Below are positions 45 through 31,833 of a DNA stretch of 36,944 bases, in pieces (within the stretch, counting starts at the first letter, position 1; the number at the start of each line of letters is the position of its first letter). The notes below the pieces were generated by a model. It did not search any database. It was not told the DNA's origin and saw only the letters and a list, made by a program, of their open reading frames with translations. The position numbers and the translations under genes were made by a program. The stretch lies in NCBI GenBank assembly GCA_030680855.1, contig JAUXUN010000023.1:1-36944 (forward strand), written 5' to 3'. Source of the stretch: Aestuariivirga sp. (lineage in GTDB: Bacteria; Pseudomonadota; Alphaproteobacteria; Rhizobiales; Aestuariivirgaceae).

Positions 45-58
45 TTGATGCATATCAA
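45..58. promoter_or_regulatory. FNR/Anr/FixK-type box (perfect)
   Basis: Perfect palindrome TTGAT-GCAT-ATCAA, matching the consensus bound by FNR/Anr/FixK-type regulators. Its centre lies about 76 bases before the ATG of the nitroreductase gene. An in-frame upstream ATG at 38 would put the box inside the coding region, which argues for the start at 128. Binding is inferred, not shown. Confidence 0.8.
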
Positions 59-127
59 TGCAGACCGAATCCTCTGTTGGGCAGATGGCAGCTGGCTGAT
101 CGACTTCGGCGAAAGGAGACTACTGCG

Positions 128-772
128 ATGAGTACCCTTACGAAGCTAGCCCTCGGCATGATGGGGCAGCTGCGCCCCAAGCCTGCGCAAGGCGATACGC
201 TGCCAAAGATGGCCCTGCCTGCGCCTCAGAAGGATGGCGGCATGGCATTGATGGAAGCCCTGTCCAAGCGGCACTCGGCACGCGACTTTGCACCCAAGGA
301 GCTAGCACTGTCTCTGTTGTCCAACCTGCTTTGGGCCGCCTACGGAGTGAATCGCCCAGACAAGGGACGCACTGCGCCCTCGGCGCTCAATTCGCAGGAA
401 ATCGATATTTATGTGGCGCTGCCCTCGGGCGCCTACCTGTATGACGCGACAGAGAACGTTCTGCAATTGGTGGCGGCCAGTGATGTCCGGCACGTGACCG
501 GGTATCAGGACTTCGTTTCGGACGCTGCCTTGGACCTGGTGTTTGTTGCCGACCACAGCCGCATGAAGCTGGTGCCAGTCGCAAAACGCGAGAGCTATGC
601 ATCCGTTACAACCGGCGCCATCTCGCAGAACGTGTACCTGTTCGCAGCCAGCAATGGCTTAGCCACGGTAATCCGGGCCTGGATCGACCGCGATGCAGTC
701 GCCGATGCGCTGTGGCTAAACCACGACCAGCAGGTGTTGCTGTCGCAGACTGTGGGTTATCCGAAAGGCTGA
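128..772 (+). CDS. Nitroreductase-family (SagB/ThcOx-like) protein
   Basis: A 214-residue protein of the FMN-dependent nitroreductase fold. The region around residues 40-55 (EALSKRHSARDF) is the typical N-terminal arginine/serine FMN-binding stretch, and SALNSQEIDIYV corresponds to the segment that places the family's second conserved motif. The C-terminal part (TTGAISQNVYLFAASNGLATVIRAWID) matches the helix that packs on the flavin. These enzymes reduce nitro, quinone or enone compounds with NAD(P)H; the substrate here is unknown. The start at 128 was chosen because AAAGGAG lies about 10 bases upstream and an FNR-type box precedes it; an upstream ATG at 38 would overlap that box. There is no signal peptide, so it is probably cytoplasmic. 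The cytochrome c gene follows after about 60 bases and is probably cotranscribed. Confidence 0.8.
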   Translation: MSTLTKLALGMMGQLRPKPAQGDTLPKMALPAPQKDGGMALMEALSKRHSARDFAPKELALSLLSNLLWAAYGVNRPDKGRTAPSALNSQEIDIYVALPSGAYLYDATENVLQLVAASDVRHVTGYQDFVSDAALDLVFVADHSRMKLVPVAKRESYASVTTGAISQNVYLFAASNGLATVIRAWIDRDAVADALWLNHDQQVLLSQTVGYPKG

Positions 773-831
773 TCCCAGAGGGACGATTGTGCTCGTTTGT
801 TGAATTCCAAGTTAGGCGAATGAGGAAGGAT

Positions 832-1167
832 ATGCCAATGCTTAGGAAGATGCTTCTACCACTTTTGTTCCCAGTCCCAGTCCTTGTGCTTGCCATGCCT
901 CAATCAGTTTGCGCTGCGGATGCTGCTGCTGGCCGCAAACTTGCTGAGCAATGGTGCGCGAAGTGCCACGACATCAACAAGGGTGCCCCATTCAAACTCA
1001 ACCCACCAAGCTTTGCGTCGATTGCCGTTTACCGTCCCCCCGATATCATTCTTGGCAAGGTCATAACGCCTGCGATGCACAGTGGCATGCCGGAAACGCT
1101 ATGGACGCTGCAGCGGGAGGACTTCGAAAACCTCGTGGCCTACATCACTTCGCTTGCGGAGAATTAG
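832..1167 (+). CDS. Small periplasmic c-type cytochrome
   Basis: A 111-residue precursor with an N-terminal hydrophobic signal segment (residues 4-22) and likely cleavage near SVCA-A (residues 28-29). One haem-binding motif, CAKCH, lies at residues 42-46. Met86 in HSGMP is the likely distal axial ligand, so this resembles a class I, single-haem cytochrome of about 9 kDa when mature. It probably carries electrons in the periplasm, perhaps to a high-affinity oxidase or an anaerobic reductase; the partner is not visible here. The ATG at 832 follows GAGGAAGG at a short distance; ATG 838 is an alternative. It sits downstream of the nitroreductase and probably shares the FNR-type box at 45-58. Cys27 lies close to the cleavage site but is not in a convincing lipobox. 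Confidence 0.85.
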   Translation: MPMLRKMLLPLLFPVPVLVLAMPQSVCAADAAAGRKLAEQWCAKCHDINKGAPFKLNPPSFASIAVYRPPDIILGKVITPAMHSGMPETLWTLQREDFENLVAYITSLAEN

Positions 1168-2758: not shown

Positions 2759-2772
2759 TTGACCTATGTCAA
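2759..2772. promoter_or_regulatory. Variant FNR/FixK-type palindrome
   Basis: Perfectly symmetric TTGAC-CTAT-GTCAA, which keeps the TTG-N8-CAA core of FixK/NnrR/FNR sites but has C/G at the inner position. It ends only 34 bases before the ATG at 2807 of the PRPP-synthetase-like gene. At the usual -41.5 position the transcript would begin almost at the start codon, so it either gives a nearly leaderless mRNA, acts as a repressor site, or serves the divergent gene. Confidence 0.55.
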
Positions 2773-2806
2773 TGCCGTTCTCAAAGTTCGGATACAAGGT
2801 GTTTTT

Positions 2807-3784
2807 ATGTTGTTTTTTGCCATTCATGAATCACGCCCATTTGGCGAGCAGGTGGCCCGGCACCTTGGTGTGGATCTGAGTCTGCATGAGGAGCGCAACT
2901 TCGAGGACGGCGAGCATAAGATGAGGCCACTTGTCAGCGTTCGAGGCAAGGATGTTTATGTTCTGCAGAGCCTCCATGGCGGGCCAGTTGAGAGCGTAAA
3001 CGACAAGCTTTGCAAGTTGTTGTTCTTTCTTAGCGCCCTGCGTGACAATGGCGCAGCGCGCATTACCGCGCTGGTGCCCTATCTCGCCTACTCCAGGAAG
3101 GATCGCCAGACCAAGACCCGCGATCCCGTAACGACCCAATATGTCGCTCGTCACTTTGAGGCAGCCGGCGCCGATTGTGTCGCCACCCTCGATGTTCACA
3201 ACATTGTCGCTTTCCAGAACGCCTTCCGCTGCCGGACCGTCCACCTCGATACCCGTGGCCTGTTTGCCAACGCACTTCGAGATTTGCTGGCAGATGCGCA
3301 AGTTACCGTGATCTCGCCCGACCCAGGCGGCGTAAAGCGGGCGCAACTCTTTCGTGAAATGTTGCAAAAGACGCTGCTCCGGCCTGTGGGTCAGGCTTTT
3401 GTGGATAAGCGCCGCAGCGGAGATATCGTAAGCGGTGATATGATCGTCGGCGATGTTGAGAATACAACCGTGGTTGTGATAGACGATCTGATAGCCTCGG
3501 GGGGGACGATGGATCGCGCGGCACGCGCGGCAATGGAACATGGGGCGAAGGAAGTAATTGCCTGTGCCGCACATGGGCTCTTTACCGGCAACGCCAAATC
3601 GATCCTGGCAGCCGCGCCGCTCAAACACATTATCGTCACCGATACAGTCCCTCCGTTCAGGCTGGACGCAACGTTTGTCACAACTCACATTGAGAACGTG
3701 AGCGCCGTACCGCTCTTTGCAGATTGCATCAAGTGCCTTCATGGGGGTTCTTCAATATCTCAGTTGCTGGGCGACGAGGACTAG
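2807..3784 (+). CDS. Ribose-phosphate pyrophosphokinase-like protein
   Basis: A 325-residue member of the PRPP synthetase family, which makes 5-phosphoribosyl diphosphate from ribose 5-phosphate and ATP. Visible are the phosphate/ATP region ALVPYLAYSRKDRQTK, followed by ARHFEAAGADCVATLDVHN (the family's metal and flexible-loop region), and the PRPP-binding loop VVVIDDLIASGGTMD with Asp226-Asp227. The sequence is divergent from housekeeping Prs (for example FFAIHESRPFGEQVARHLG at the N terminus), so it is probably a second, accessory copy. The ATG at 2807 follows AAGGTG; an in-frame TTG at 2759 would begin inside the palindromic box and is rejected. The hibernation factor gene follows 26 bases later, suggesting an operon linking nucleotide supply with ribosome storage. 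A phosphoribosyltransferase gene lies nearby at 4646-5314. Confidence 0.85.
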   Translation: MLFFAIHESRPFGEQVARHLGVDLSLHEERNFEDGEHKMRPLVSVRGKDVYVLQSLHGGPVESVNDKLCKLLFFLSALRDNGAARITALVPYLAYSRKDRQTKTRDPVTTQYVARHFEAAGADCVATLDVHNIVAFQNAFRCRTVHLDTRGLFANALRDLLADAQVTVISPDPGGVKRAQLFREMLQKTLLRPVGQAFVDKRRSGDIVSGDMIVGDVENTTVVVIDDLIASGGTMDRAARAAMEHGAKEVIACAAHGLFTGNAKSILAAAPLKHIIVTDTVPPFRLDATFVTTHIENVSAVPLFADCIKCLHGGSSISQLLGDED

Positions 3785-3810
3785 GCGGATTCCAGTTTGA
3801 GGAGGAGATT

Positions 3811-4350
3811 GTGCAGACACCAATAGAAATTGACTTCCAGGGCTTTACACCAACTGATCGCCAGAAGGCTTCGGTCCAGGAGCATATCAGACTCTTCGAA
3901 AAAAGATTTGGACGTATCAGCTCCGGCCGCCTCGTCGCTATCGGGCCCGGCGGCCACCATCAGACGGGAGGCCTCTACGAGGTCAACATCCGACTAAGAC
4001 TGCCGACGGGAAAGGAAGTCGATGCGTCCCGTACCCCTCACGCCGATGAGCGTCACTCCGACTTCTATTTCGCATTGAATGACGCCTTCAAGCGGGCCCG
4101 CCGCCAGCTTCAGGACAAAGTGGGGCGTCTCAGGGGTGAGGTCAAATCCCATGAGCCCCCGACTGCCGGAACTGTGACCAAGTTGTTCGAAGATCACGGA
4201 TTCCTTGAGACTCCGGCCGGCCTGGAAATCTACTTCCACCGAAACAGCGTCCTGAACGGCGGTTTCGCCAAGTTGAAGCCGGGAATGCGCGTCACCTATG
4301 TTGAGGAGGAGGGTGAAAGCGGCCCGCAGGCGAGCACCGTCAAAATCTAG
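3811..4350 (+). CDS. HPF/RaiA-like ribosome hibernation factor with cold-shock-like domain
   Basis: A 179-residue protein with two parts. Residues 1-100 follow the HPF/RaiA (sigma-54 modulation protein) pattern: an opening beta strand IEIDFQGF, the helix ASVQEHIRLFEKRFGRI, and the strand/helix stretch YEVNIRLRLPTGKEVDASR...DFYFALNDAFKRARRQLQDK. Residues about 118-179 (GTVTKLFEDHGFLETPAGLEIYFHRNSVL...MRVTYVEEEGESGPQASTVKI) look like a cold-shock/OB fold with the RNP-like GFLET and IYFHR segments. HPF proteins bind the 30S decoding centre and inactivate ribosomes under stress; the added RNA-binding domain could aid docking or dimer formation (inference). The GTG start at 3811 follows GGAGGAG at 3801-3807 with good spacing. 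It is probably cotranscribed with the upstream PRPP-synthetase-like gene. Confidence 0.82.
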   Translation: MQTPIEIDFQGFTPTDRQKASVQEHIRLFEKRFGRISSGRLVAIGPGGHHQTGGLYEVNIRLRLPTGKEVDASRTPHADERHSDFYFALNDAFKRARRQLQDKVGRLRGEVKSHEPPTAGTVTKLFEDHGFLETPAGLEIYFHRNSVLNGGFAKLKPGMRVTYVEEEGESGPQASTVKI

Positions 4351-4642: not shown

Positions 4643-4645
4643 GGC

Positions 4646-5314
4646 TTAAGAATCCTTCAAATTCGAAGGGTCCGCAGCGGCCAGCATTTCGATCACTTCT
4701 TCATCGGCGACCTGATGAAAGTCGCGATAGAAATCACCGATGGCCATGAATGGATAGGGTTGGTGAAGGCAGATGATGTCATCGACATAGGTACTCAGTT
4801 CATTGATCCTGTCGCCCGGGGCAACCGGAACTGCCAGCACAAGCCTCTTAGGGCTTCTCTTCTTCAGCGCCTGTAATGCAGCCTTGACGGTGGTGCCCGT
4901 GGCAATGCCATCATCGACGACAATGGCGGTGCGGCCCATAACGGAGACGGGCTCACGCCCCTTGAGATAAAGTTTACGACGCCGGTCGATCTCGGCAATT
5001 TCCTTTGCTGCCGCCTTTTCAATTTCATGCCGCTCAAGACCCAGCGTCGACATCACTTCATCATTGAAGACGAGATCGCGGCGTTCTCCATCGACAATAG
5101 CAGCGGCGGCGAGCTCCGGCTGCCAGGGGACTCCGATCTTCCGCACTAAAAGCAATTCCAGTGGGGCCTTCAAAAGGCGCGCTACTTCGAGAGCCACGGG
5201 AACACCACCACGCGGCAAGGCAAGCACCACCGGCTGCTCAAACCGGAATTTTGCAACCTCCTCCGCCAGAAGTTGTCCGGCCTGCGTCCGCGACGTGAAC
5301 GCCGTGAAGGTCAT
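4646..5314 (-). CDS. Phosphoribosyltransferase (COG1926-like)
   Basis: A 222-residue type I PRTase-fold protein. The PRPP-binding loop IVVDDGIATGTTVKAAL lies at residues 131-147, and LALPRGGVPVALEVARLL (31-48) is the conserved N-terminal loop. This family (COG1926, predicted phosphoribosyltransferase) is often next to or fused with an alpha/beta hydrolase, as here, where it overlaps the upstream hydrolase gene by 4 bases (ATGA). The substrate is unknown; salvage of a base is possible but not shown. The middle part (residues 85-120) is rich in charged helix-forming residues. ChaB follows after 3 bases. Confidence 0.85.
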   Translation of the reverse strand: MTFTAFTSRTQAGQLLAEEVAKFRFEQPVVLALPRGGVPVALEVARLLKAPLELLLVRKIGVPWQPELAAAAIVDGERRDLVFNDEVMSTLGLERHEIEKAAAKEIAEIDRRRKLYLKGREPVSVMGRTAIVVDDGIATGTTVKAALQALKKRSPKRLVLAVPVAPGDRINELSTYVDDIICLHQPYPFMAIGDFYRDFHQVADEEVIEMLAAADPSNLKDS

Positions 5315-6678: not shown

Positions 6679-7326
6679 CTAGACAATGCTGATATGGTCC
6701 ACGACCGAAATAACACCGGGCGCCGACCACGCAGTGCGTTCTGCGAGGTCACGCTCGTACCAGGCCTTCACCTTGCCATCCAGCGTGACATGTCCATTCA
6801 AGACCGACACCTTTATAGCGCCAGACTCTAGTTCGGCGTTTCTTTTCAAGGCATTCTCAATACGGTGCTTGACATCCAGGGCCTGGACTCTCGGCTTGAT
6901 CATGATCTCATTGGCGAGACCCTTGATGCCCGCCAACTTGCGGACGGCACATTCCGCGTCGGTGCGTTGATAGTGCCAGTCAACTTCGCCCGAGAGTGTC
7001 ACAAATCCACCCTGGATCTTAACCTGCACCTTGTCCTTGGGTATGGTCGAATCCCAGGCGATTATATCCAAGGCACGTTTGGCGATCTGATCGTCTGACG
7101 TTTTTTTGTCATTGGGAAAGCGGATTTCAATTTCCTGGGCGATTGCCCGGACACCTTTCACCCGCCTGACGGCCTTCTCGGCAGTGAACTTCTCAGAGTA
7201 GCTACCAACATGGCCAGTGAGCGTCACAACGCCATCTTCGGCTGTTACACCGATATGCTCGGCGTCAATGCTTGGTTCCCATTCCAGTTCATCTTCAACG
7301 GCTTGCTTCAGGGTTTTGTCACTCAT
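6679..7326 (-). CDS. Triple BON-domain protein
   Basis: A 215-residue protein built of three BON domains, at about residues 5-70, 80-145 and 150-214. Each shows the pattern of a short helix, then V-x-V/I-x-G-x-V-T-L-x-G-x-V (GVVTLTGHV, GFVTLSGEV, GHVTLDGKV), then a helix and a closing V-N/D-x-I. BON domains bind phospholipid or osmotic-stress targets. There is no signal peptide, so it is probably cytoplasmic or membrane-associated. The start at 7326 was chosen because GGAGA lies 6 bases upstream; the ATG at 7332 is too close to that site. A perfect FNR-type box lies 82 bases upstream, and GACAAT is placed where a class II -10 element would be. Confidence 0.88.
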   Translation of the reverse strand: MSDKTLKQAVEDELEWEPSIDAEHIGVTAEDGVVTLTGHVGSYSEKFTAEKAVRRVKGVRAIAQEIEIRFPNDKKTSDDQIAKRALDIIAWDSTIPKDKVQVKIQGGFVTLSGEVDWHYQRTDAECAVRKLAGIKGLANEIMIKPRVQALDVKHRIENALKRNAELESGAIKVSVLNGHVTLDGKVKAWYERDLAERTAWSAPGVISVVDHISIV

Positions 7327-7407: not shown

Positions 7408-7421
7408 TTGATATTGATCAA
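7408..7421. promoter_or_regulatory. FNR/Anr/FixK-type box (perfect)
   Basis: Perfect TTGAT-ATTG-ATCAA, centred 88 bases before the ATG of the BON gene. On the minus strand GACAAT at 7384-7379 lies about 32 bases downstream of the box centre, the usual -10 position for a promoter activated from -41.5. Confidence 0.82.
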
Positions 7422-7465: not shown

Positions 7466-8446
7466 CTAAGCGCGGGCTTCCACCTCATATGCTATTGATA
7501 AAAAGGCGGCGGCCCCTCTTAGACCCGCTTCATCTGTGACTATTACGTAAATAGGGATGGACTTCATATACTCCGTCATGCGCCCCTTGGAATCGAACCC
7601 CTTGCGGAAGTCTCCGACCGTCAGAACATCTAGTATGCGGGGCGCGATCCCGCCACCGATATACATGCCCCCGCGAGCTCCATAGAACAGCGCTGCATCG
7701 CCGGCAAATCGGCCGAGCCAGCTGGCGAAAAGCTCCACCACCTTCACCGCGACTGGATCATTGCGGCTAAGTGCCCTCTCCACGATTTCGGGAGTTGTAC
7801 ACTTCACGGCCTGCTTGCCCTGCAACTCTGTCAGAATTTGGTAAGCACTCGCGAGACCCGGCCCTGAAATCAGCATCTCGGCTGATATGTGGCCGAATTC
7901 CGTGTGCATTCGTTGCAGAATCATGAATTCTTCGTCATCCGCTACGGCGAAAGACGAATGTCCCCCCTCCCCTGGAATCGCGCACCATCCGGCCCGGGAC
8001 CAGGTCAGCCCTGCCACACCGAGCCCGGTCCCCGGCCCCACAACCGCCTTTGTCGCCTGTCCTGCGGACAAGTCTCCTCCCACCCTCTGGTAGTCGTTCT
8101 CCGAAAGTCTCGGCAGCGCATAGGCCAATGCCTCATAATCGTTGACGAATGCGATATAATCGGTGGCGGTTACAGCACGCATCGCCTCGCGAGTAAAAGA
8201 CCAAGAGGAATTGGTGAGACTTATCCGTTCCCCGCCAACCGGTCCAGCTACTGCAAAACCGGCGACTAGAGGCCGAAACGAAAGTGTTGCAAGATAGCTC
8301 TCGGTCGCCGCTTCAAGTGAACTATAGTCTGATACCTTTAACTTCTTGAAGTTTTGAATTTCAAGAGTTTTCAGGTTGGCCAATGCAAAACGCGCATGGG
8401 TTCCACCGATGTCCGCGACCAGAGCGATGGGACGTGGATTGATCAT
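7466..8446 (-). CDS. glk: Glucokinase
   Basis: A 326-residue proteobacterial-type glucokinase that phosphorylates glucose with ATP. Diagnostic segments are the phosphate-1 loop VADIGGTHARFALAN (residues 10-24), the sugar-binding FVNDYEALAYALPRL with catalytic Asp103, GPGTGLGVAG, and the adenosine segment GGMYIGGGIAPRIL. Its length matches E. coli Glk. The start is ATG at 8446 (MINPRPIALV); the ribosome binding site is weak. It lies 57 bases after the ATPase gene on the same strand, so it is probably the last gene of the glucose-transport operon, coupling uptake with phosphorylation. Confidence 0.93.
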   Translation of the reverse strand: MINPRPIALVADIGGTHARFALANLKTLEIQNFKKLKVSDYSSLEAATESYLATLSFRPLVAGFAVAGPVGGERISLTNSSWSFTREAMRAVTATDYIAFVNDYEALAYALPRLSENDYQRVGGDLSAGQATKAVVGPGTGLGVAGLTWSRAGWCAIPGEGGHSSFAVADDEEFMILQRMHTEFGHISAEMLISGPGLASAYQILTELQGKQAVKCTTPEIVERALSRNDPVAVKVVELFASWLGRFAGDAALFYGARGGMYIGGGIAPRILDVLTVGDFRKGFDSKGRMTEYMKSIPIYVIVTDEAGLRGAAAFLSIAYEVEARA

Positions 8447-8503
8447 TAATGAACACTCAAACAGTGAGGCACAACGCAAATATCCTTCCAATACTCATAT
8501 CTT

Positions 8504-9610
8504 TCACAACCGCTTCCCGGTCTTGACATCGAACAGTTTTGCCTTGCCCATATCGACTTCAAACGCGTACTTTGCACCCGCCTGTTCTCGGTCTTCCGGA
8601 TGGACCCGGGCAATGGCCTCGATGTTGCCGAGCGTGAAAACGAGCATTGTATCCGGCCCGGTCGGCTCCACGACATCAATGGCTCTTTGAAACGAGAACA
8701 TGTTCACTGACGGCCGCTGGGCGCCCTTGCGGGTGATCGTTTCCGGACGCATTCCCAGAAAAACCTCCTGATCTTCACGGGCTGCCGCTGGCTTAAGCAG
8801 CCGATCAGGCAAAGGGAACAGGATCGAACCCTCCTCATCAATAACCTCAACGACGTATTGGCCTTTCTTTCTGATGCGGCCGCGCACAATGTTCATTGAA
8901 GGAGCACCGATGAACTCCGCAACGAAGAGATCTTCCGGTTCCTCATAGATGGTTTCCGGCGAAGCAAACTGGCGGATATGGCCATTGTCCATAACCGCAA
9001 TTCGTGAAGCGAGCGTCATCGCTTCAATTTGATCGTGCGTGACATAAATAATGGTCTTGCCAAGCTGCTGATGAAGTTTTTTGATTTCAGTGCGCATTTC
9101 AATGCGAAGTTTCGCGTCGAGATTGGATAGCGGTTCGTCAAACAGGAACACATCGGGATGACGCACAAGGGCCCGCCCCATCGCCACCCGCTGCCGCTGG
9201 CCGCCCGAAAGTTGGCCGGGCTTGCGCTCAAGGAAGGAATCGATATGCAAAAGTTCGGTCACCTGCTTGAGGGCGCGCTCCTGTTCCGCAACCGGAACCC
9301 TTCGGGTTTCCATGCCGAAAGTGATGTTTTTGTGCACGGTTTTTGTTGGATAGAGCGCATAGGACTGAAAAACCATTGCAATGTTTCGGTCTTTCGGCGG
9401 AATATCATTCACCAGCCTGTCCCCGATGAAGATATTGCCGCTCGATAGCGTCTCAAGTCCCGCGACGAGATTGAGCAAGGTCGACTTTCCGCAGCCGGAG
9501 GGTCCCACCAGAACTACGAATTCACCCTCATTAAATTCGATGTCCACGCCCTTGATGACTTCGGTTGCTCCGAACCTCTTCCACACTTTCTCAAGACGGA
9601 CATTGCTCAT
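8504..9610 (-). CDS. Sugar ABC transporter ATPase (MalK/UgpC/MsmK family)
   Basis: A 368-residue ATPase that powers a sugar importer from the cytoplasmic side. Seen are Walker [10 protein letters not shown] (residues 37-45), Q-loop [10 protein letters not shown], signature [15 protein letters not shown], Walker [17 protein letters not shown], and the switch His in [11 protein letters not shown]. Residues 240-368 form the MalK-type C-terminal regulatory OB domain ([21 protein letters not shown]). The gene follows the MalG-like permease by 4 bases. Proteins of this group often serve more than one transporter. Confidence 0.93.
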
Positions 9611-9614
9611 CGCG

Positions 9615-10508
9615 TTAACCTTTCAGAGCACCGGCGGCGAGACCCCGGACGAAATATTTTCCAGCGATGATGTAAACCAATAGGGTGGGCAACGCGGCCA
9701 GGATCGCCGCCGCCATATCGACGTTGTATTCTTTCACCCCTGTCGAGGTGTTGACAATATTGTTGAGGGCAACGGTTACCGGATTGCTGTCGCCCACAGT
9801 GAAGGCAATGCCAAACAGAAAGTCGTTCCAGATCTGGGTGAACTGCCAGATCACGGTTACCACAATCGCTGGCGGCGCCATGGGCAGCATAACGTGGAAG
9901 AAGATGCGAAAGAAGCCCGCACCGTCAATCTTGGCCGCCTGGACGATTCCATCTGAAACTCCGATGAAGAAATTGCGGAAATACAGTGTTGTGAATGCCA
10001 GGCCATAAACCGTGTGGACAAAGATCAGCCCAGTGACAGATCCCGCGAGACCCATAAGTCCAAGCGTGCGAGCCATGGGCAGCAGAACAACCTGAAATGG
10101 GATGAATGCCCCGAACAGCATCAGCGCGAATATGGTATCTGCGCCGCGGAACCGCCACTTGGTCAGCGCGTAGCCATTGAGCGCGCCGAGCGTTGTTGAG
10201 ATCAGCACCGCCGGCACGACCATGGCTACTGAATTCCACATGTAGGGCCGCAAGCCATTGCAGCGGACACCGACGCAGGCCGATTGCCAAGCCTTACCCC
10301 AAGCATCGAAATTCGGGTTCCGGGGCAGACTGAGCAGCGATCCGCCACGAATCTCATCAAGGGACTTCAGCGAGGTCGAGACCATTACGAAAAGGGGCAG
10401 AAGGTAATAGAGGACAAAGAGTCCGAGTATGAAAAACAGTAGAACGCGCAGCACCTTGTTGCGTGCGCCCTTTGGCCTGACGATGCCATCGATTGCAGCT
10501 CTGCTCAT
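9615..10508 (-). CDS. Carbohydrate ABC permease (MalG-like)
   Basis: A 297-residue inner-membrane protein of the binding-protein-dependent permease family. It has a first membrane segment at about residues 20-45 and five more in the core. The EAA loop that docks on the ATPase is [24 protein letters not shown]. The closing [14 protein letters not shown] is typical of the MalG half. The gene overlaps the preceding permease by 4 bases (ATGA). It forms the channel with the MalF-like partner. Confidence 0.92.
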
Positions 10509-11395: not shown

Positions 11396-11473
11396 TGGGG
11401 CACTCGGTCAGTTAAGTGAAATGACCGGGACCCTCATGCGGACCCCGATCGTTCGCGTGTTCTGAACAGATGT

Positions 11474-12805: not shown

Positions 12806-12819
12806 TTGATGCTGATCAA
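12806..12819. promoter_or_regulatory. FNR/Anr/FixK-type box (perfect), transporter side
   Basis: Perfect TTGAT-GCTG-ATCAA in the divergent region between the sugar-binding protein and PEP synthase. It is centred 82 bases before the ATG of the binding protein, with a TAGCAT -10 candidate at the right distance. Confidence 0.82.
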
Positions 12820-17102: not shown

Positions 17103-17161
17103 CATGTTGGAGCCTCTGGCAATCTAGTATCCTTCTTCGCGGATCATTTGGGAGTATGACC

Positions 17162-21763: not shown

Positions 21764-22905
21764 CCGCCTTCCGCATGCCTTCGCTTGGGGCCGACATGGA
21801 CGAGGGAACCCTCGTTGAGTGGATTAAGAAGCCTGGCGATCAGCTGAAACGCGGCGATATAATAGCAGTGGTCGAGACCCAAAAAGGGGCCATCGAGATT
21901 GAAGTCTTTCATGACGGTGTGCTGGAGGCCATCCATGTGAAGACCGGCTCACGCGTCCCGGTCGGAGAGGTACTTGCGACCATCCGAACGGCGGAAGAGC
22001 CGGAATCGGCCCAGCCTGTTCCACCCGAAGTGGTTACACAGAAGCCAGTCTACGCGCCTCCAGCCCAAGTTGCAGCCCCGTTTACACCCGGACTGAAGAT
22101 TACGCCCGCCGCCAGCTCCCGCGCCAAGGAACTCGGCATTGATGTTCAGTCGGTATTTCCGGGGCAGGATGGCATCATTGGACTCAAGGAAATTGAAGTG
22201 CCCTCGGTACCCGCCAAACCCAAGGCCAGCCGTGGCATCAATCTCGACGAAATGCGCAACGCCATCGCGGCGGCCATGGCGCGCAGCAAGCGCGAAATTC
22301 CTCACTACTATGTGAGCTCAATCATCGACATGACGGCAATGATGGAATGGCTTGCCACGGAGAATGCACGCCGCACCGTTTCTGATCGTCTCCTTGCCGC
22401 CGTTCCCATCATCAAAGCCTGCGCCCTTGGTTTGCAGCAGGTCCCCGAACTCAATGGTCACTTTCTTGATGATCGTCCGCTGCGGATCGCCGAGGTGAAA
22501 ATGGGGATTGGCATCGCTTTGCGCGGCGGTGGGCTTATAGCCCCTGCCCTTGCCTTGCCCGACAGGCTATCGCTGACCGAAATCATGCAGCGGCTGAGCG
22601 ACCTGGTCGCGCGCGTCCGTGGTGGCCGGCTGCGAAGTTCGGAACTGACGGAAGCTACCGTGACGCTTTCCAATCTTGGGGATAATTCGGCCGATATGGT
22701 ATTACCTGTGATCTATCCACCGCAGGTGGCAATCATCGGCGTCGGCCAAATCGATGCTCGGCCATGGGTGGTGGACGGCACCCTCGCATCTCGCAAGATT
22801 GCAACTTTCGCGGTCGCCGGAGATCATCGCGCCAACGATGGTCGTTCGGCAGCTCGTTTTCTCAGGCTCCTTGGCGAAATTCTTCAGAAACCGGAGATGC
22901 TATGA
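21760..22905 (+). CDS. pdhC: Dihydrolipoamide acetyltransferase (E2)
   Basis: A 381-residue E2 with one lipoyl domain (residues 1-77; lipoyl Lys42 in [13 protein letters not shown]), a proline/alanine-rich linker (about 78-110), a peripheral-subunit-binding domain (about 111-146, [28 protein letters not shown]) and a catalytic domain (about 165-381). The catalytic motif is HRANDG (H-x3-D-G), usually HRVVDG. ATG 21760 overlaps the E1 beta stop; earlier in-frame starts lie inside pdhB. The usual ETDKA around the lipoyl lysine is ETQKG here. No E3 gene is near, so the dehydrogenase must come from elsewhere. Confidence 0.88.
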
Positions 22906-23150
22906 CTCAGGATCAACTTGTCGAACTGGTCAAGCGGTCACTCTACGAGGTAGCCCCCGATCTCGAGGCTGAACCACTCGATCCGAAACGCAGCTTCAAC
23001 GAGCAGTTCGAATTCGACTCCATGGATTTCCTTAAGTTCATCACCGGCCTGCATCAGGCTACGGGACTCGCTCTCCCCGAGAAGGACTACCCACACCTGG
23101 TGAGCCTGGAACTTGCGGTCGCGTATCTGTCCGAGAAACTTCCGTCATGA
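22902..23150 (+). CDS. Acyl carrier protein-like protein
   Basis: An 82-residue ACP-type protein. The phosphopantetheine site is Ser40 in FEFDSMDF (consensus D-S-L/M), followed by the helix III pattern TGLALPEKDYPHLVSLELAVAYLSEKL. It is acidic and small as expected. ATG 22902 overlaps the E2 stop by 4 bases, so it is the last gene of the acs-pdhABC unit. It is unlike the FabF-linked housekeeping ACP in that the Ser is in DSMD rather than DSLD. No phosphopantetheinyl transferase or ketosynthase is nearby. It may take an acyl group from the ligase or E2 (inference). Confidence 0.85.
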   Translation: MTQDQLVELVKRSLYEVAPDLEAEPLDPKRSFNEQFEFDSMDFLKFITGLHQATGLALPEKDYPHLVSLELAVAYLSEKLPS

Positions 23151-23297: not shown

Positions 23298-24920
23298 TTA
23301 TATTCCCGTATCCATCTGAGGCATGCGGCTCTTCTCTGGTTCTTCAATTTCGGTCATGGTTGCCTCGGTAAGCAGCAAAACGCTTGCAACCGATACCGCG
23401 TTCTCAAGCGCGATTCGCACCACCTTGGTTGGATCAATGATCCCGGCCTCAATCAGATCGGTGTATTCATTGCGCGCCGCATCAAACCCGAAATTGCCCT
23501 TGCCTTCAAGCATCTTGGCGATGACCACTCCACTATCAACGGCAGAATTTTCGGCTATCTGGCGGGCCGGGGCGGCAAGCGCCCGCTTCAAGACCTGAAT
23601 CCCGGTGCGTTCGTCACCTTCGGTAATTTTCTCAAGGGCGCTTAGGGCATCGACACATCGCAAGAGTGCCAGTCCACCACCGGGAACCACCCCTTCACTC
23701 ACCGCCGCCTTGGTGGCGCTGATAGCATCGTCGAGGGCGTCTTTTCTGGTCTTCATCTCGGATTCAACCGGAGCGCCGGCGCGAATTACTGCGACGCCGC
23801 CTGACAACTTCGCCAGACGCTCCTGCAACTTCTCCTTGTCGTAATCGCTGGTAGTCTTGGCGATTTCAGCCTTGATCTGGCCAATCCGATCGTCAATGGC
23901 GGTTCGCTGGCCGCCACCGCCGACAATGGTCGTAGTATCCTTGTCGCAGACCACGCGCTTGGCCTTGCCAAGCTGGTCAAGTGTGGCGGTTTCGAGTTTC
24001 AACCCGAGCTCCTCGGCAATGACTTGCGCGCCCGTAAGGATAGCGATGTCATGCAGCATGGCTTTTCGCCGGTCGCCGAAGCCCGGCGATTTCACGGCGC
24101 AGCTTTTCAGATTACCGCGCAATTGATTGACGATAAGGGTGGCGAGCGCCTCGCCTTCCACATCCTCGGCGATCACCAGCATAGGCTTGGCCGACTTGGC
24201 GACCTGTTCAAGAAGCGGAATGAGATCGTTCAACGCGGCGATCTTCCGGTCGCAGACCAGAATGAGGACATCTTCGAGGACAGCTTCCATTTTCTCGCCG
24301 TTGGTGATGAAATAAGGCGAGATGAAACCCCGGTCGAATTGCATGCCCTCCACCACCTCCAGAACAGTCTCGGTGGTCTTCGACTCCTCGACGGTGATAA
24401 CGCCCTCATTGCCCACCCGTTCCATGGCATCTGCCACAAGATCTCCGATCAGTTGGTCATTATGGGCTGAGATCGCCGCCACCTGGGCTTTCTCTTTCCG
24501 TGTTGTGACCGGGCGTGACAGGGCTTTGAGGGCTGCAACTGCAGCCTGGGCGGCGCGCTCAAGTCCGCGCTTCACATCAATGGCACTGGCGCCGGCAACG
24601 ACATTACGCAAGCCATCGGCATACATGGCATGGGCCAGAACAGCTGAAGTACTGGTGCCGTCGCCAACGAGTTCGCCCGTTTTTTCAGCGGCTTGCCGTA
24701 GCATCTGGGCACCCAAGTTTTCTTCCGGGTCTTTCAGGTTGAATTCCTTGGCGATAGTGACGCCATCATTGCACACGAGCGGGGCCCCCCATTTCCTTTC
24801 AATCAGAACCGATTTCGATTTGGGTCCCAGCGTCACGCGGATTGCGTCTGCCATCTGGGTGGCCCCACGCAAGATCTTCTCGCGTGCCTCGGACCGAAAC
24901 ATCACTTGCTTGTGTGCCAT
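23298..24920 (-). CDS. groEL: Chaperonin GroEL (60 kDa), orphan copy
   Basis: A 540-residue Hsp60 chaperonin. Typical segments are [31 protein letters not shown], the [17 protein letters not shown]-binding region, VEEVL-like [17 protein letters not shown]-type apical-domain entry (here [20 protein letters not shown]), and [11 protein letters not shown] in the equatorial domain. The C terminus ends [12 protein letters not shown] without the GGM-repeat tail of E. coli GroEL. There is no groES next to it. The ATG at 24920 has AGGAG 7 bases upstream. An FNR-type box (9/10) lies about 66 bases upstream, so this copy may be specialised for low oxygen; no standard CIRCE element is seen. Confidence 0.93.
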
Positions 24921-24979: not shown

Positions 24980-24993
24980 ATGATTCAGATCAA
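24980..24993. promoter_or_regulatory. FNR/FixK-type box (one mismatch), groEL side
   Basis: ATGAT-TCAG-ATCAA, 9 of 10 bases of the palindrome. It is centred about 66 bases before the groEL start and 280 before the Crp/Fnr start. Confidence 0.6.
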
Positions 24994-25266: not shown

Positions 25267-26052
25267 ATGACCCAGTTCACAAATTGCAATACAAAAGCTC
25301 CTGATCACAACAAGGCAGATTCGCTGGTGTTTAGGCATCTCATGGATGACCAGACTCTTCTCCCACTGGATAGCGGCGAAAGACAACGGCTTGATAGTGT
25401 CCGTTGGCTAGTGAAAACCATCGACAGAAACTGCCCGGTGATTGGCCAAGGCGAGGATCGCGAGGTGGTGGCCGTGCTCTTGTCCGGCTGGGCCTTCTGC
25501 TATCAAACCCTTCCCGATGGCAAACGGCAGATTCTTGACTTTATCTTTGCCGGCGCGCTTGTCGGATTTGGCACCGGGCTCACCAATTCCTATGGAGTGG
25601 AAACCGTGACAGCTTGCAACGTCGCCACCCTGCCCCATGGACAATTCCGCCGCCTGTTGGCGACCTGCCCCGCCTTGGCCATGCAGGTTGTCGAGCGCGT
25701 ATCCGACAGCGAGATGCGGGCCCATGAACACATGACCAGCCTTGGCCGGCGCAGCGCCCGCGAACGCGTTGCCGCACTGATTGTGGAGCTTACGTGCCGG
25801 GCCCAGTGCACGGACCTCGGCAGGCGCGAATACAGCATTGACCTGCCCGTCACCCAAATGATGATTGGCGATGCGCTTGGACTGTCCAATGAACATGTCT
25901 GCCGCATATTGGGCAAACTGGCGAATGACAAGGTGATTGAAATCAACAACCATACCTTGAAAGTGCTCGACCAGCCGGCACTTTCCCGGGAAGCCGGAGC
26001 CGATCCGAAAGACTTCATTGGCCGTGAAAGCCAGTTACCAGCGGCCGCGTAA
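25267..26052 (+). CDS. Crp/Fnr-family transcription regulator
   Basis: A 261-residue regulator with an N-terminal cyclic-nucleotide-binding-like beta-roll (about 45-140; LLSGWAFCYQTLPDGKRQILDFIFAGALVGFG), a dimer helix (CPALAMQVVERVSDSEMRAHEHM) and a C-terminal winged HTH (about 190-245; TQMMIGDALGLSNEHVCRILGKLANDKVIE). The recognition helix keeps E-x-x-C-R in the place of FNR's E-x-x-S-R, consistent with a TTGAT half site. It has scattered cysteines (for example Cys7) but no FNR-type CxxC...C cluster, so it resembles FixK or a non-iron-sulphur FNR relative. Ribosome binding site AGGGAGA. It is the natural candidate to bind the boxes in this window. Confidence 0.88.
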   Translation: MTQFTNCNTKAPDHNKADSLVFRHLMDDQTLLPLDSGERQRLDSVRWLVKTIDRNCPVIGQGEDREVVAVLLSGWAFCYQTLPDGKRQILDFIFAGALVGFGTGLTNSYGVETVTACNVATLPHGQFRRLLATCPALAMQVVERVSDSEMRAHEHMTSLGRRSARERVAALIVELTCRAQCTDLGRREYSIDLPVTQMMIGDALGLSNEHVCRILGKLANDKVIEINNHTLKVLDQPALSREAGADPKDFIGRESQLPAAA

Positions 26053-27125: not shown

Positions 27126-28034
27126 TTATGCCTCAATAACGGTGCCGGCACGCCGCTTTAAAATTTCCAATGCGTCTTCGAGCCTGCCGATGCCGGCCAT
27201 CCTTCGCCCGCCCGACACGAAGTCAATGGCAGCCTTCACCTTTGGAGCCATGCTTCCGGCCGCGAAGGAATAGGAATTCAGCTCATCCGGTTTTACGGAA
27301 TCCAATCGGCGTTGCTGCGCTGTTCCCCAGCCAAGATAGACGCCATCGACATCGGTGAGCATCAACAGCGCATCGGCATTAATTTCACGCGCCAACAGGC
27401 CGCTTGCGTGGTCCTTGTCGATCACCGCTTCGACGCCAGCGTAGCTGCCGTCCTTTCGCCTCACTACCGGTATGCCGCCGCCACCCGTGCAAATGACCGT
27501 CACATCGTGCTCGATCAGCAGCTTGATAACTCCAATCTCCAGAATGCGCTTGGGTTGCGGCGAAGGCACGGCCCGCCTGAAATGAGATCCATCGGGCACC
27601 ATGACCCAGCCATGCTTGTCGGCCAACGCGGCTGCCTCCTTGCTGCTATATATGGGGCCGATCGGCTTAGTCGGCTTTTGAAAGGCAGGGTCGGAGGCAT
27701 CAACTTCGACCTGCGTCAGAAGCGTGGCAATTTCATTCTGGGTCGATATGACGTTTCCCAGTTCCTGTTCGATCAGGTAGCCAATCATGCCTTCCGTTTC
27801 AGCACCCAGGAGATCGACAGGACTGGCGAGAGCCTGGTCATAAGCCATATCCCGGAGCGCCATCAGCCCGACTTGCGGGCCATTGCCATGCGTCACGATA
27901 ACCTGATGCCCGGCCGCAATCACCTCGCCAATGGCCAGGGCCGCACGCCTGACATTCTGCCGCTGGTTTTCCGCCGACATGACCTCGTCGCGTTTGAGAA
28001 TTGCATTCCCGCCGAGTGCGATGACCACGCGCAC
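27126..28034 (-). CDS. arcC: Carbamate kinase
   Basis: A 302-residue carbamate kinase: carbamoyl phosphate + ADP to ATP + ammonia + CO2, the ATP-making step of the arginine deiminase pathway. The family pattern is clear: VRVVIALGGNAILKRD, VTHGNGPQVGLMALRD, DLLGAETEGMIGYLIEQEL, PSPQPKRILE, VICTGGGGIPVV, and DADALLMLTDVDGVYLGWG-like NADALLMLTDVDGVYLGWG, then GSMAPKVKAAIDFV. The GTG start at 28034 lies 4 bases after the arcB stop; longer in-frame starts lie within arcB. It ends 8 bases from the convergent helix-hairpin-helix gene. Last gene of arcDABC. Confidence 0.93.
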   Translation of the reverse strand: MRVVIALGGNAILKRDEVMSAENQRQNVRRAALAIGEVIAAGHQVIVTHGNGPQVGLMALRDMAYDQALASPVDLLGAETEGMIGYLIEQELGNVISTQNEIATLLTQVEVDASDPAFQKPTKPIGPIYSSKEAAALADKHGWVMVPDGSHFRRAVPSPQPKRILEIGVIKLLIEHDVTVICTGGGGIPVVRRKDGSYAGVEAVIDKDHASGLLAREINADALLMLTDVDGVYLGWGTAQQRRLDSVKPDELNSYSFAAGSMAPKVKAAIDFVSGGRRMAGIGRLEDALEILKRRAGTVIEA

Positions 28035-28038
28035 GCCT

Positions 28039-29040
28039 TTAGTTCCCAATCGTCGCGACGAGGACGGCCTTGATCGTATGCATCCGGTTTTCAGCCTGGT
28101 CGAAGACGATTGAGGCTGGCGATTCAAATACTTCTTCGGTGACCTCCATGGCCTTCAGCCCGAATTTCTTCTCAATGTCCTTGCCAACCTCGGTTTCCGT
28201 GTTGTGGAAGGCCGGCAAACAATGCATGAACTTGGTGCTGGGTTTCCCCGTCAACTTCATGACTTGCGCGTTCACCTGATAAGACTTCAGCAGGTTGATA
28301 CGTTCCGCCCATTTCGCATCCGGCTCGCCCATGGACAGCCAGACATCGGTGTAGAGGAAGTCGCAGTCCTTCACCGCCTGTTCAATATTGTCAGTGACCG
28401 TCACATGCGCCCCGGTTTCCATCGCGGTCTTTTCGGCATAGGCGATAATTTCCGTGTCTGGCCAACAGGCCTTCGGCGCGCACAGCCGCACATCCATTCC
28501 CAACTTCGCCCCGCCGATCAGAAGCGAATCGCCCATGTTGTTGCCGGCATCGCCAAGAAAACAGAAACTCACCTGGCTTAACGGCTTTTCGCAATGTTCC
28601 TGCATGGTGAGGAGGTCGGCAAGCACCTGGGTCGGATGATATTCGTCCGTAAGACCATTGTAGACGGGTACGCCGGAGAATTTCGCCAGTTCCTTCACAG
28701 TCGCCTGGCTGAACCCCCGATACTCGATTGCATCGTAGATGCGGCCGAGTACCCGAGCCGTATCCTTCATTGTTTCCTTGTGGCCGATCTGCGTGCCGCT
28801 TGGACCGAGGTAGGTCACATGGGCGCCCTGGTCGTAGGCGGCGACCTCGAAGCCGACGCGCGTCCGTGTGGAGGCTTTCTCGAAGATCAGTGCAATGCTT
28901 TTTCCCTTGAGCCGCTGCTGTTCGGTTCCGGTGTTTTTGGCCGTCTTGAGGTCGGCCGAAAGCTTGAGGAGGAATCCGATTTCCGCCGGAGCGAAATCGC
29001 GAAGCGTCAGAAAGCTCCGGTCTTGAAGGTTGAAGGGCAT
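28039..29040 (-). CDS. arcB: Ornithine carbamoyltransferase, catabolic type
   Basis: A 333-residue ornithine transcarbamylase. In the arginine deiminase pathway it works backwards: citrulline + phosphate to ornithine + carbamoyl phosphate. Motifs seen: carbamoyl-phosphate site [12 protein letters not shown] (near residue 55), [48 protein letters not shown], and the ornithine/citrulline site HCLPAF. Length and the extended [11 protein letters not shown] loop suit the catabolic ArcB group. ATG 29040 has AGGAG 7 bases upstream. It lies 11 bases after the arcA stop. Confidence 0.94.
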
Positions 29041-29051
29041 TGTTATCTCTC

Positions 29052-30290
29052 CTAGTAGTCCACGGCATCGCGGGAGACCGGACAGGTCATGCAATGTCCG
29101 CCGCCGCGGCCGCGGCCCAGTTCGGCGCCGCGGATGGTTATGACTTCGACGCCGGCCTTGCGCAGCAATGTGTTGGTGTGGACATTGCGATCATAACCAA
29201 TGACGACGCCGGGCTCCAGGGCAACGACGTTGTTGCCATCGTCCCATTGCTCGCGTTCCTGTTCAAAGGAATCTCCGCCAGTGCCAATCACATGCAATTT
29301 CCTGATGGCAAGGCATTCCTCAATGAGATTGAAAACCGACTTGGTTTCGGCACGGAAATCGATCCTCCCGGGCGTGTCACCCGGACGTAGGCTGAAGCAG
29401 CGCAGTTGCTCAGCCACTTCCACGAAGCTGGTGGCGACCGCGCGGTCGCACAGCGTAAATACCGTGTCAAGATGCATGGCGGCGCGCGATTGTGGCATCT
29501 GGCAAGCGACGACGCGGCTCGCAACTTCATTTTTGAAAAGCGCCCGGGCCAGTTGGCCGACAGCCTGCGGGCTCGACCGTTCACCCATGCCGACAAAGAC
29601 AATGCCGTTGCCGAGCGGCAGGATATCGCCCCCCTCCAATGTTGCCAGACCGAAATCGCGCTCGGGATCGCCCCACCAGACCTCGAACTTCTCATCCTTG
29701 AATCGGGGATGAAACTTGTAAACGGCGGCGGTAAGAAGGGTCTCCTGGCGGCGGGCCGGCCAATGCATCGGATTGAGCGTGACACCACCATAAATCCAGG
29801 CGCTAGTATCGCGTGTGAACATCAGGTTAGGCAGAGGCGGCGCCACAAACCCGTGAGGGCCGAGATACTGGCCGAACATGCCACTGGGCTTGAAGGGCAG
29901 ATCGCAGACGGCTATTCCACCTGTCAGGACCTCGGCAACTTCCTGCGCCGGAAGATGGCAGAGCCAGTCCTTAATTTCGTCCAGCATGCCGACGCCAATA
30001 TGGTTCTCGGTGTACTTCCGATCGAGTACCCACGCCAATGCCGTGGCGTCGGTGGCGATGTCCGCCAGAAGATCATGCATGTCCAGAACCTCAACGCCGC
30101 GCTCCTGCATCTTCGTCGTGAAGTCGTGATGATCGTTCCGCGCTTCGTGCACCCAGAAGACATCGTCAAAGAGAAGGTCCTCGCAGTTCGACGGGGTCAG
30201 CCGTTCGTGGGCCCGGCCCGGGCGGCAGGTAAGCACGGTTCGCAGCTTTCCGATTTCGGAATAGGTGCCGATCGATTGGGATACGGTCAT
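29052..30290 (-). CDS. arcA: Arginine deiminase
   Basis: A 412-residue arginine deiminase, which hydrolyses arginine to citrulline and ammonia. Seen: [31 protein letters not shown] at the N terminus, [48 protein letters not shown] with the catalytic His, and the C-terminal [13 protein letters not shown] with catalytic Cys400, equivalent to Cys406 of the Pseudomonas enzyme. Length is normal. It follows arcD by 11 bases with AGGGAAA before the ATG. Under low oxygen it feeds carbamoyl phosphate to ArcC for ATP. Confidence 0.95.
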
Positions 30291-30301
30291 TTATTTCCCT
30301 A

Positions 30302-31768
30302 TTAAGCGCTGATGGCGCCGGTCCACATCCAATAGCCCGCGATCCCGGCAGCAATCACGATGCCGGCAGCAATTGCCACCTCCATTACATTGAAGGCTTT
30401 CTCGCCGCGAACACTGCGCGCCCACCAGTAGACGAGAATGCCAGGTGCATAGAGCAGCGCGCACATCAGCAGATAGTTGGGACCTGCCGCATAGACAAGC
30501 CAGGCACCGTAGACCGTGGCTATGGCTCCTACAAACATATCCCGACTACGTCCATCGCCAACGCCGTAACTTTCCCCGGTCATGGCAAGCTTGAGCGCAT
30601 AGGCTCCCGAGAAAACATAGGGCACCAGAATGGCCGTGGAGGCAATGTAGAACAATGCGAGATAGGTCGAGTTCGAATAGAGGGTAATGATCAGGAATGC
30701 CTGCACCAGGATATTGGTTATCCAAAGGGAACCGATGGGTGAGCCTCTCTCGTTTTCAGTTGCAAAGACGTCCGGCATCATGCCTTCGCGCGCTGCGCGA
30801 TAGGGAATTTCGGCGGCAAAAAGCGTCCAGCTCAGAAAAGCGCCTGCGACCGAGACCACGAGGCCGATGCGGACAAGCACAGAACCCCACGGGCCAACCG
30901 CTTTCTCAAGCACATTGGCCATTGAGGCCGAGCTTGGCAGTGCCGCAAGTTCGGGCTGGGTCATGACGCCGAAGGAGAGGAGCGAGATAAGAAGATACAC
31001 CGAGAGCGCAGTTGCAAATCCGAGTATGGTAGCCCTGCCAATATCAGCTCGACGTTCGGCGCGTGCGGAAACGACGCTTGCGCCTTCGATGCCGATGAAA
31101 ACCCACAGGGTCACAAGCATAGTGCTCTTGACTTGTGTCATCACATCGCCAAGGGCCGGAACACCTGCACCCCAAATGTCAAAATTGAATGTGGGAAGGT
31201 TGAAAGCAATCAACGCCATCACGATGAATATGAAGATCGGCGCCAGCTTTGCGATCGTCGTGACCACATTGACGAGTGCGGCTTGACGGATGCCCATGAG
31301 AATAAGGGCATGGACAAGCCAAAGGCAAATGGAAGCGCCTACAATGGCCTGCCAGGTGTTTCCCTCTGAGCCGAATACAGGAACAAAATAGCTGAGGGCA
31401 CCGAAGATCAAAACCGCATAGGAAACATTGCCAATCCAGGCGCTGAGCCAATATCCCCATGCGCTATTAAAGCCAATAAAATCTCCGAACCCGGCCCGGG
31501 CATAGGAATAGGGGCCGGCGTCAAGCTTCGGCTTTCGCGTTGAAAGACCCTGATAGACGAAAGCCAGCGCCAGCATTCCGACACCGGCGATGAGCCAGCC
31601 AATGATGACAGCACCTGGGGAAGCCGCTTTGGCCATATTCTGCGGCAGGCTGAAAACACCGCCGCCAATCATCGAGCCCACAACAAGGGCAACAAGCGGC
31701 ACCAAGCCAAGCCCGACAGATGATTTTTTTTGCACCGCGTTAACCGGGATGGTGATCGCTTTAGCCAT
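30302..31768 (-). CDS. arcD: Arginine/ornithine antiporter, APC family
   Basis: A 488-residue membrane protein of the amino acid-polyamine-organocation superfamily with about 12-13 hydrophobic segments. The first, [26 protein letters not shown], holds the family's glycine-rich substrate loop; [22 protein letters not shown] is the segment 6 region. With arcABC directly downstream the substrate is most likely arginine in exchange for ornithine. The ATG at 31768 was chosen for GGAGGAG 6 bases upstream; a TTG at 31783 begins within that ribosome binding site. The order arcD-arcA-arcB-arcC is that of Pseudomonas, and the FNR-type box at 31820 matches ANR control there. Confidence 0.92.
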
Positions 31769-31819
31769 GGTTGTCTCCTCCAATTTTGCTCAATTTGGGC
31801 CGCAAATTACCCAACAGCA

Positions 31820-31833
31820 TTGATCGGGATCAA
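31820..31833. promoter_or_regulatory. FNR/Anr/FixK-type box (perfect), arc operon
   Basis: Perfect TTGAT-CGGG-ATCAA between arcD and the divergent ABC ATPase, centred 59 bases from the arcD start and 62 from the ATPase start. It probably controls arcDABC, by analogy with ANR in Pseudomonas, and may control both sides. Confidence 0.83.

Follow-up and report, generated by a model that had tools for sequence, protein, structure and literature searches.

The stretch of DNA analysed here, called the window below, is a 36,944-base contig (C11) of an Aestuariivirga sp. genome in which nine palindromes of the FNR/FixK type, referred to as boxes, stand near the starts of operons. An earlier note on this DNA had read them as the marks of a single low-oxygen regulon gathered in one place, and a shared, physically clustered regulon of this type is supported by the clustering of the boxes, their position in gaps between genes, their spacing from promoter elements and their partial conservation. 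All six perfect TTGAT-N4-ATCAA sites lie exactly where they had been placed, the symmetric variant at 2759 is present and matches the degenerate pattern TTGAY-N4-RTCAA, and each of the two near-perfect sites, 17999 and 24980, carries a single mismatch. The boxes are as follows:

45..58, perfect box TTGATGCATATCAA, centred 76.5 nucleotides (nt) ahead of the nitroreductase start at 128
2759..2772, variant box TTGACCTATGTCAA, preceding the gene for ribose-phosphate pyrophosphokinase (ATG 2807)
7408..7421, perfect box TTGATATTGATCAA, before the BON gene, with a -10-like GACAAT 22 nt beyond
12806..12819, perfect box TTGATGCTGATCAA, before the sugar ATP-binding cassette (ABC) operon in the minus direction, with a -10-like TAGCAT at 23 nt
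12853..12866, perfect box TTGATGAGGATCAA, in the divergent gap between the ABC operon and the phosphoenolpyruvate (PEP) synthase gene
17089..17102, perfect box TTGATCTTGATCAA, in the gap shared by the two divergent CBS-BON genes, with -10-like hexamers 22 nt away in both directions
17999..18012, near-box TTGAGATAGATCAA, one mismatch, tentatively before the acs-pdh-ACP operon
24980..24993, near-box ATGATTCAGATCAA, one mismatch, before groEL
31820..31833, perfect box TTGATCGGGATCAA, in the divergent gap between the arginine deiminase (arc) operon and the ABC exporter genes

The genes behind them, with the profiles that identify them, are:

128..772, plus strand, nitroreductase-family protein (PF00881)
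2807..3784, plus strand, ribose-phosphate pyrophosphokinase (PF13793, PF14572)
3724..4350, plus strand, ribosome-hibernation-like protein with a cold-shock domain, S30AE + CSD (PF02482, PF00313)
4646..5314, minus strand, phosphoribosyltransferase (PF00156)
6679..7326, minus strand, triple BON-domain protein (PF04972, three stretches)
7466..12730, minus strand, sugar ABC operon: binding protein, two permeases, ATPase and glucokinase (PF01547, PF00005, PF02685; permeases read from the sequence)
12992..15376, plus strand, PEP synthase (TIGR01418, NF005057)
15392..16318, minus strand, PfkB-family sugar kinase (PF00294)
16341..17027, minus strand, CBS-CBS-BON protein (PF00571, PF04972)
17156..17854, plus strand, second CBS-CBS-BON protein (PF00571, PF04972)
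18097..23150, plus strand, acs-pdh-ACP operon: AMP-forming acyl-CoA synthetase, E1 alpha, E1 beta, E2-like and ACP-like proteins
23298..24920, minus strand, GroEL (TIGR02348)
25267..26052, plus strand, Crp/Fnr regulator (PF13545, PF00027), recognition helix LGLSNEHVCRIL
27126..31768, minus strand, arc operon: antiporter, arginine deiminase, ornithine carbamoyltransferase and carbamate kinase (TIGR03810, NF002381, NF003286, TIGR00746, over cut-off)
31889..36193, plus strand, divergent from arc, MacB/LolD-like ABC ATPase, permease and membrane-fusion-like genes (ATPase matches below cut-offs, the other two from open reading frames, ORFs)

Gene families could be assigned by Pfam or NCBIfam for most of these units, and the boxes do precede operons of differing function. 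The claim that every box lies in a promoter gap and none inside a gene stands once likely downstream starts are used; it fails for the longest ORFs, which boxes 12853, 2759 and 45 touch, 12853 by a single base at the very beginning of the longest PEP-synthase ORF, the other two by sitting within N-terminally extended ORFs. The likely starts downstream of these three boxes are ATG 12992, ATG 2807 and ATG 128, respectively.

The window nitroreductase has matches of 51% and 52% identity in the box clusters of Paraburkholderia sacchari and Cupriavidus KK10, the PEP synthase is 74% identical to a Bradyrhizobium copy, and a related acs-pdh-ACP operon with boxes nearby occurs in Celeribacter and Cupriavidus. 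The E2 matches of this operon fall below the NCBIfam cut-offs, its ACP-like protein has no profile match at the 1e-20 limit, and no GroES was seen among the called genes neighbouring groEL. The S30AE-CSD fusion ORF (3724-4350) overlaps the end of the pyrophosphokinase ORF. Two look-alike pyridoxamine-phosphate-oxidase-family proteins are encoded at the right end of the window (36245-36694) and on contig C24 (L016:14564-15073). The final bases of the window (36880-36944) start an ORF that we take to resemble the beginning of an IS630-type transposase, and the contig may break in an insertion sequence.

Clustering of the boxes and extent of the island

Perfect sites are expected 0.06, 0.07 and 0.11 times per window under Markov models of order 1, 3 and 5, and 0.16 times from the rate in the rest of the genome, which bears out the earlier estimate that chance would supply well under one in this length; six are observed (Poisson P 2e-8 against 0.16). 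The genome, of 3,730,072 bases on 85 contigs, has 23 perfect places, or 22 distinct sites after removal of one duplicate, and the comparison of box density that the earlier note had proposed showed it not to be uniform, with 6 of the 22 in 1% of the genome. Box 45 appears twice in the assembly (C11:45 = C24:84), the contigs overlapping there: the first 141 bases of the window are identical to the reverse-complemented start of C24. Joined, C24 and C11 make 103,115 bases (2.8% of the genome) and carry 16 of the 45 distinct TTGAY-N4-RTCAA sites (46 places), 10 of them perfect, which is an enrichment over the rest of the genome of 19-fold for degenerate and 29-fold for perfect sites. When 22 sites were placed at random, a 37 kb stretch with at least 6 arose in 1 of 20000 trials, and 10 sites within 103 kb in 0 of 20000.

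Sites were listed in full for the congeners G002, G003, G004, G012 and G017 and in part for G020, and clusters were counted by eye in G003 and G012. These two controls have 25 and 23 perfect sites and at most 2 within 37 kb on one contig, a count from which contig breaks may hide some. Since they match this genome in site number but not in clustering, what is informative is how the sites cluster rather than how many there are. The reversed pattern occurs at 1 place here versus 23 perfect ones, and at 4 versus 46 degenerate ones. We treat this control as a rough guide, because perfect sites number 4-25, and reversed ones 0, in five congeners that have no recognised regulator, and relied instead on the local Markov models, the genome rate and the clustering. 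Genome-wide box number as a sign of regulon size was rejected, as it does not track the presence of a regulator.

Boxes span about 86 kb, from about 54.5 kb of C24 to 31.8 kb of the window, and beyond about 54.5 kb the genes of C24, named from the sequence, read as housekeeping. Of the earlier description of an island of about 32 kb, the clustering is therefore retained but not the size, and respiratory nitrate reduction has to be included. The cargo on C24 consists of:

narK (918 amino acids, aa), narG, narH, narJ and narI
PpiC-type isomerase; oxidase-like subunits I and II with UbiA-type and SCO proteins
cytochrome b/ferredoxin protein; hemerythrins; nnrS; FtsH; sigma-70-family factor
two U32 proteins with an SCP2 protein, together presumably ubiUVT-like
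trimethylamine-methyltransferase-like protein; nicotinate phosphoribosyltransferase; M50-CBS protease
P-type ATPase; formate/nitrite transporter

The second half of the long NarK protein (L018:8771-11527) matches NarK-type nitrate/nitrite transporters and its first half other transporters of the major facilitator superfamily. The trimethylamine-methyltransferase-like protein adjoins an NADH:flavin oxidoreductase (L017:2517-6144). Three further perfect boxes are on contig C6, where two lie between the genes for an amino-acid permease and a universal stress protein; no overlap was found between the ends of C6 and the ends compared, those of the window and the first end of C24.

Promoter position and conservation

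On the joined stretch, which is 86% coding, 14 of the 16 degenerate boxes are clear of called genes; of the other two, one overlaps a gene by a single base and one falls in an N-terminal extension of an ORF. Among the boxes examined outside C24, C11 and C6, 6 of 15 are inside genes; this check left out 11 degenerate boxes on C18, C27, C41, C43, C49, C51, C67, C75 and C80:24040.

Three boxes elsewhere in the genome deserve mention in their own right. The sequence TTGATCTGGATCAA or its complement is found in 10 of the 12 congeners with sites at least partly listed and here at C33:62434 (L023:4935), before a short Cys-rich ORF and genes reading as formate dehydrogenase subunits; it is possibly one old conserved site. 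A perfect box at C78:45259 precedes a 156-aa ORF (L025:5025-5495) resembling a shortened N-terminus of a second arginine-ornithine antiporter. The box at C47:6751 precedes a 45-aa ORF (L031:6556-6693) similar to the start of the C6 universal stress protein, and looks like a remnant.

Promoter geometry was assessed with a -10-like score, using self-made weights, at the 21 promoters with a box at most 110 nt from the start (17 on the joined stretch and 4 on C6). The mean score peaks 22 nt past the box end at 1.39, a value reached in 0 of 2000 shuffles, whose maxima averaged 0.52 with a largest of 1.29; box 45 has the lowest score of the 21. This spacing leads to a predicted box centre near -41 relative to the transcription start. 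A centre near -41 is the class II position of FNR-type activators. Boxes that lie in promoters and whose centres are predicted near -41.5 are what would be expected of an FNR/FixK-type regulon.

One-mismatch sites call for more caution. The window has seven, five of which (16999, 25933, 31200, 32875 and 34378) are inside called genes, and 17999 and 24980 therefore need outside support; the earlier note had named just these two gap sites of the seven, and as a class such sites are weak alone. Near-box 24980 ranks 3rd of 62 offsets in the -10-like check and is backed by the congener G002, in which a near-box lies 74 nt upstream of groEL, versus 73 nt here. Near-box 17999 ranks 5th and its outside support is weak; a Celeribacter stretch has TTGATCGCCGTCAA about 100 nt ahead of a match to the acs-pdh-ACP operon, and we assign the near-box to this operon tentatively.

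Conservation of the boxes is partial. In the gap between arc and the ABC exporter, the 14-mer is identical in this genome and in G009 and G016 while many flanking columns differ, and G009 retains the pair of boxes in the narK gap, each with one spacer base changed. In G002 the ABC, GroEL, PEP synthase, PfkB and CBS-BON genes are collinear; boxes stand ahead of its ABC operon and in its CBS-BON gap, and its sugar-binding protein and permeases are 79-84% identical. Further afield, 80 of 571 confirmed PEP-synthase loci were analysed, of which 35 have at least one degenerate box and 45 none, with 78 boxes in 1.45 Mb and 0 for the reversed control. Eleven of the 80 were compared gene by gene, 8 of them picked for having the most boxes, so that the shared cargo is a selected view. 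Stretches with 4-10 boxes and shared cargo were found in Cupriavidus KK10, Paraburkholderia sacchari, Celeribacter baekdonensis, Pseudaminobacter, Bradyrhizobium and metagenome-assembled genomes of Yoonia, Mesorhizobium and Nevskia. A Methylocystis plasmid was rejected as a parallel island, its PEP-synthase stretch having no box, and so was a Phenylobacterium plasmid, whose stretch has 2 boxes along with FixJ and a Crp/Fnr-type gene but shares little of the cargo.

Candidate regulators and competing readings

Of the possible regulators, the Crp/Fnr protein encoded at 25267-26052 is the strongest single candidate, possibly acting together with two FtrB-like Crp/Fnr proteins of C24. The window protein matches FNR and FixK2 chains and lacks a CX2CX7C motif; in an alignment of its helix SNEHVCR with TVETISR of FNR, the E and R are kept and the S is replaced by C. 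The FixK2 recognition helix is of the ETVSR type. An E...R recognition helix is present in all three candidates, as EHVCR in the window protein and as EVLSR and ESLSR in the C24 pair. A Crp/Fnr protein on contig C78 (L027:3392-4288) has an N-terminal CX2CX7C motif with the helix GIHVNR, and is a candidate Fe-S-type sensor with a different DNA specificity.

Among the congeners searched, close matches to the window regulator (57-76%) occur just in G009, G016 and G284. An FnrN-like protein, combining the motif and the helix, turned up in 17 congeners out of a relatives set of 24 and in all 3 that were added, making 20 of the 25 without the window type; Fe-S FNR was not detected in the four genomes that have the window type (this one, G009, G016 and G284), and five congeners have neither, one of them only 66% complete. 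The mutual exclusion gives a Fisher P of 0.005, uncorrected for shared ancestry. All four window-type regulators have the helix cysteine, the G016 copy being cut at a contig end. We dropped the idea that this cysteine equals C183 of FixK2, which, in the part of PMC9104804 that describes it, lies before L195 of the helix-turn-helix. A bolder proposal is that in this genus Fe-S FNR was replaced as master of TTGAT-N4-ATCAA boxes by the motif-less Crp/Fnr protein, with oxygen sensed by the helix thiol or by an upstream system, and that the replacement travelled with the island. We consider this improbable as a whole, and the G284 regulator contig, which has no other specific island gene, speaks against it.

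Taken together, the gap position, the promoter spacing and the partial conservation of the boxes fit a regulon of the FNR/FixK type, and we consider it highly probable that the island is a physically clustered regulon of an FNR/FixK-class activator, switched on in low oxygen. Binding by the regulator, activation and the oxygen signal are what we infer from the boxes and genes. A Crp/Fnr dimer would bind the TTGAT-N4-ATCAA-type boxes centred near -41 and recruit RNA polymerase, placing some 17 promoters over about 86 kb under one switch. As oxygen falls, this would turn on nitrate respiration (narK-narGHJI) with its accessory genes and a ubiUVT kind of quinone synthesis; arginine fermentation, sugar-to-PEP metabolism and a substitute route from pyruvate to acetyl-CoA; and the protective proteins GroEL, FtsH, CBS/BON and ribosome hibernation. 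By analogy with known systems, the most likely outcome is a joint onset of nitrate breathing, arginine fermentation and protective proteins when oxygen runs out.

Several observations weigh against this regulon. This genome yielded no canonical Fe-S FNR, which would have the CX2CX7C motif and an ExxSR helix together, and its best FixJ match, at 35% identity, sits beside a histidine kinase not identified as FixL. Perfect sites number 4-25 in the 5 congeners with neither regulator type versus 3-24 in the 17 that have Fe-S FNR. Nor is the -10 spacing confined to the island: 3 of 18 box directions outside it also rank first, one of them inside a gene. In G009, boxes on C114, C227 and C82 have no island cargo beside them, the PEP-synthase stretch of G010 (7.1 kb) has no box, and the regulator contig of G284 (13.6 kb) has a single box. 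The C24-C11 join is based on the 141-nt end overlap, not on reads. Composition gives no foreign mark on the island stretch either (G+C 0.55-0.59 inside versus 0.54-0.60 in other fetched stretches), and foreign composition as a sign of recent transfer was rejected.

The likeliest alternative concerns origin and is compatible with an FNR/FixK-type regulon: low-oxygen modules under one global regulator may have been acquired separately and have accumulated by repeated insertion at one site, so that proximity has no function. We regard this as evenly balanced. The pieces do occur apart: G002 has the collinear ABC, GroEL, PEP synthase, PfkB and CBS-BON genes without a window-type regulator, G009 and G016 have the arc genes and the regulator without a close PEP synthase, the narK, narG, narH and narJ genes of G009 (94-97% identity) are on another contig than arc, and in G284 the contig that encodes the regulator lacks island cargo.

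A different signal is also conceivable, in that the boxes might be read mainly by nitric oxide- or nitrite-responsive proteins of the DNR/NnrR type, namely the two FtrB-like C24 proteins, which would make this a nitrogen-oxide rather than an oxygen regulon. To our knowledge, DNR and FNR boxes are indistinguishable by sequence. Both C24 proteins have an ExxSR recognition helix, one is encoded beside narK with two boxes in the shared gap that are kept in G009, and nnrS, hemerythrins and nar genes are present; however, the set in the window (PEP synthase, CBS, nitroreductase, GroEL, BON and PfkB) is of a kind that the relevant portions of published accounts give as low-oxygen-induced in Bradyrhizobium and Burkholderia, and we judge the nitrogen-oxide reading unlikely. 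That AT-rich palindromes merely gather in intergenic DNA, not as regulator sites, finds some encouragement in the six congeners that hold 15-25 perfect sites, although two of them, listed in full, show no clusters, but given the expectations of 0.06-0.16, the random placements, the fixed -10 spacing and a box conserved between diverged flanks, chance is already unlikely for the cluster as a whole and we give it almost no weight.

On the FNR/FixK-type reading, genes for respiration, fermentation and survival, whose pieces are patchy in the genus, stand together in a single block of about 86 kb. This raises the questions of whether islands of this sort build up step by step around a common box type, and whether the master regulator of a regulon can change while the boxes stay.

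Likeness to known systems

Arginine fermentation and nitrate respiration are joined under the same kind of box in Pseudomonas aeruginosa, where ANR, an Fe-S FNR, has scattered targets. That ANR controls both arginine fermentation and denitrification is stated in the portion of PMC3759415 that deals with it. The island is also reminiscent of DosR of Mycobacterium tuberculosis in its stress proteins and phosphofructokinase. The DosR regulon includes CBS/BON and nitroreductase members, and its regulator and box are unrelated to those here. The induction of the DosR stress proteins and phosphofructokinase by hypoxia and a comparison with the Burkholderia cenocepacia lxa locus are given in the relevant part of PMC6127331.

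The lxa locus is, according to the sections of PMC6127331, PMC9104464 and PMC3759415 that describe it, a low-oxygen-activated locus of 50 genes, and the likeness lies in a large contiguous island of stress, metabolic and electron-transfer genes with BON and phosphofructokinase/PfkB genes. This likeness is by description, the sequences compared being stretches of Burkholderia sp. Bp9143 and P. sacchari and not BCAM0275-BCAM0323; Cupriavidus and Paraburkholderia stretches related to the window carry boxes. In those same descriptions lxa has six universal stress proteins, whereas one in this genome was found on C6, and the C24 and window proteins scanned with Pfam or NCBIfam, a part of the called genes, gave no match to this family.

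A cluster of Bradyrhizobium diazoefficiens at about bll4634-blr4659 is alike in having nitroreductase, ppsA, GroEL, glucokinase, PfkB-type kinase and CBS genes together, as far as PMC9104804 and PMC6515984 detail it. The passages of PMC9104804 concerned report that the nitroreductase blr4652 (TTGATCGACATCAA), ppsA, groEL5 and a universal stress gene, close by locus number, are FixK2-dependent. For blr4652, ppsA and groEL5, as well as an Hsp20 and stress genes that fall in one run of locus numbers, they list FixK2 boxes and a strong dependence on FixK2. Members of this run, among them glucokinase and the PfkB-type kinase, have positive changes in the microoxia comparison as excerpted from PMC6515984. 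Unlike that cluster, the island here has narGHJI and the arc operon, neither of which is in the stretch as those sources describe it; and FixK2 is driven by FixLJ, whereas the regulator here has the helix SNEHVCR.

Neither this island nor a regulator of this type was described in the literature searched, which is not proof of absence. The clustered-regulon reading of the earlier note is supported, while the surprise of the clustering is lowered by similar clusters documented in relatives. Judged from its genes and boxes, this island differs in bringing nar and arc genes into such a cluster and in having another regulator; clustering itself is already known for such a regulon. Its likeness to the FixK2 and lxa clusters would allow functions tested there to be proposed here.

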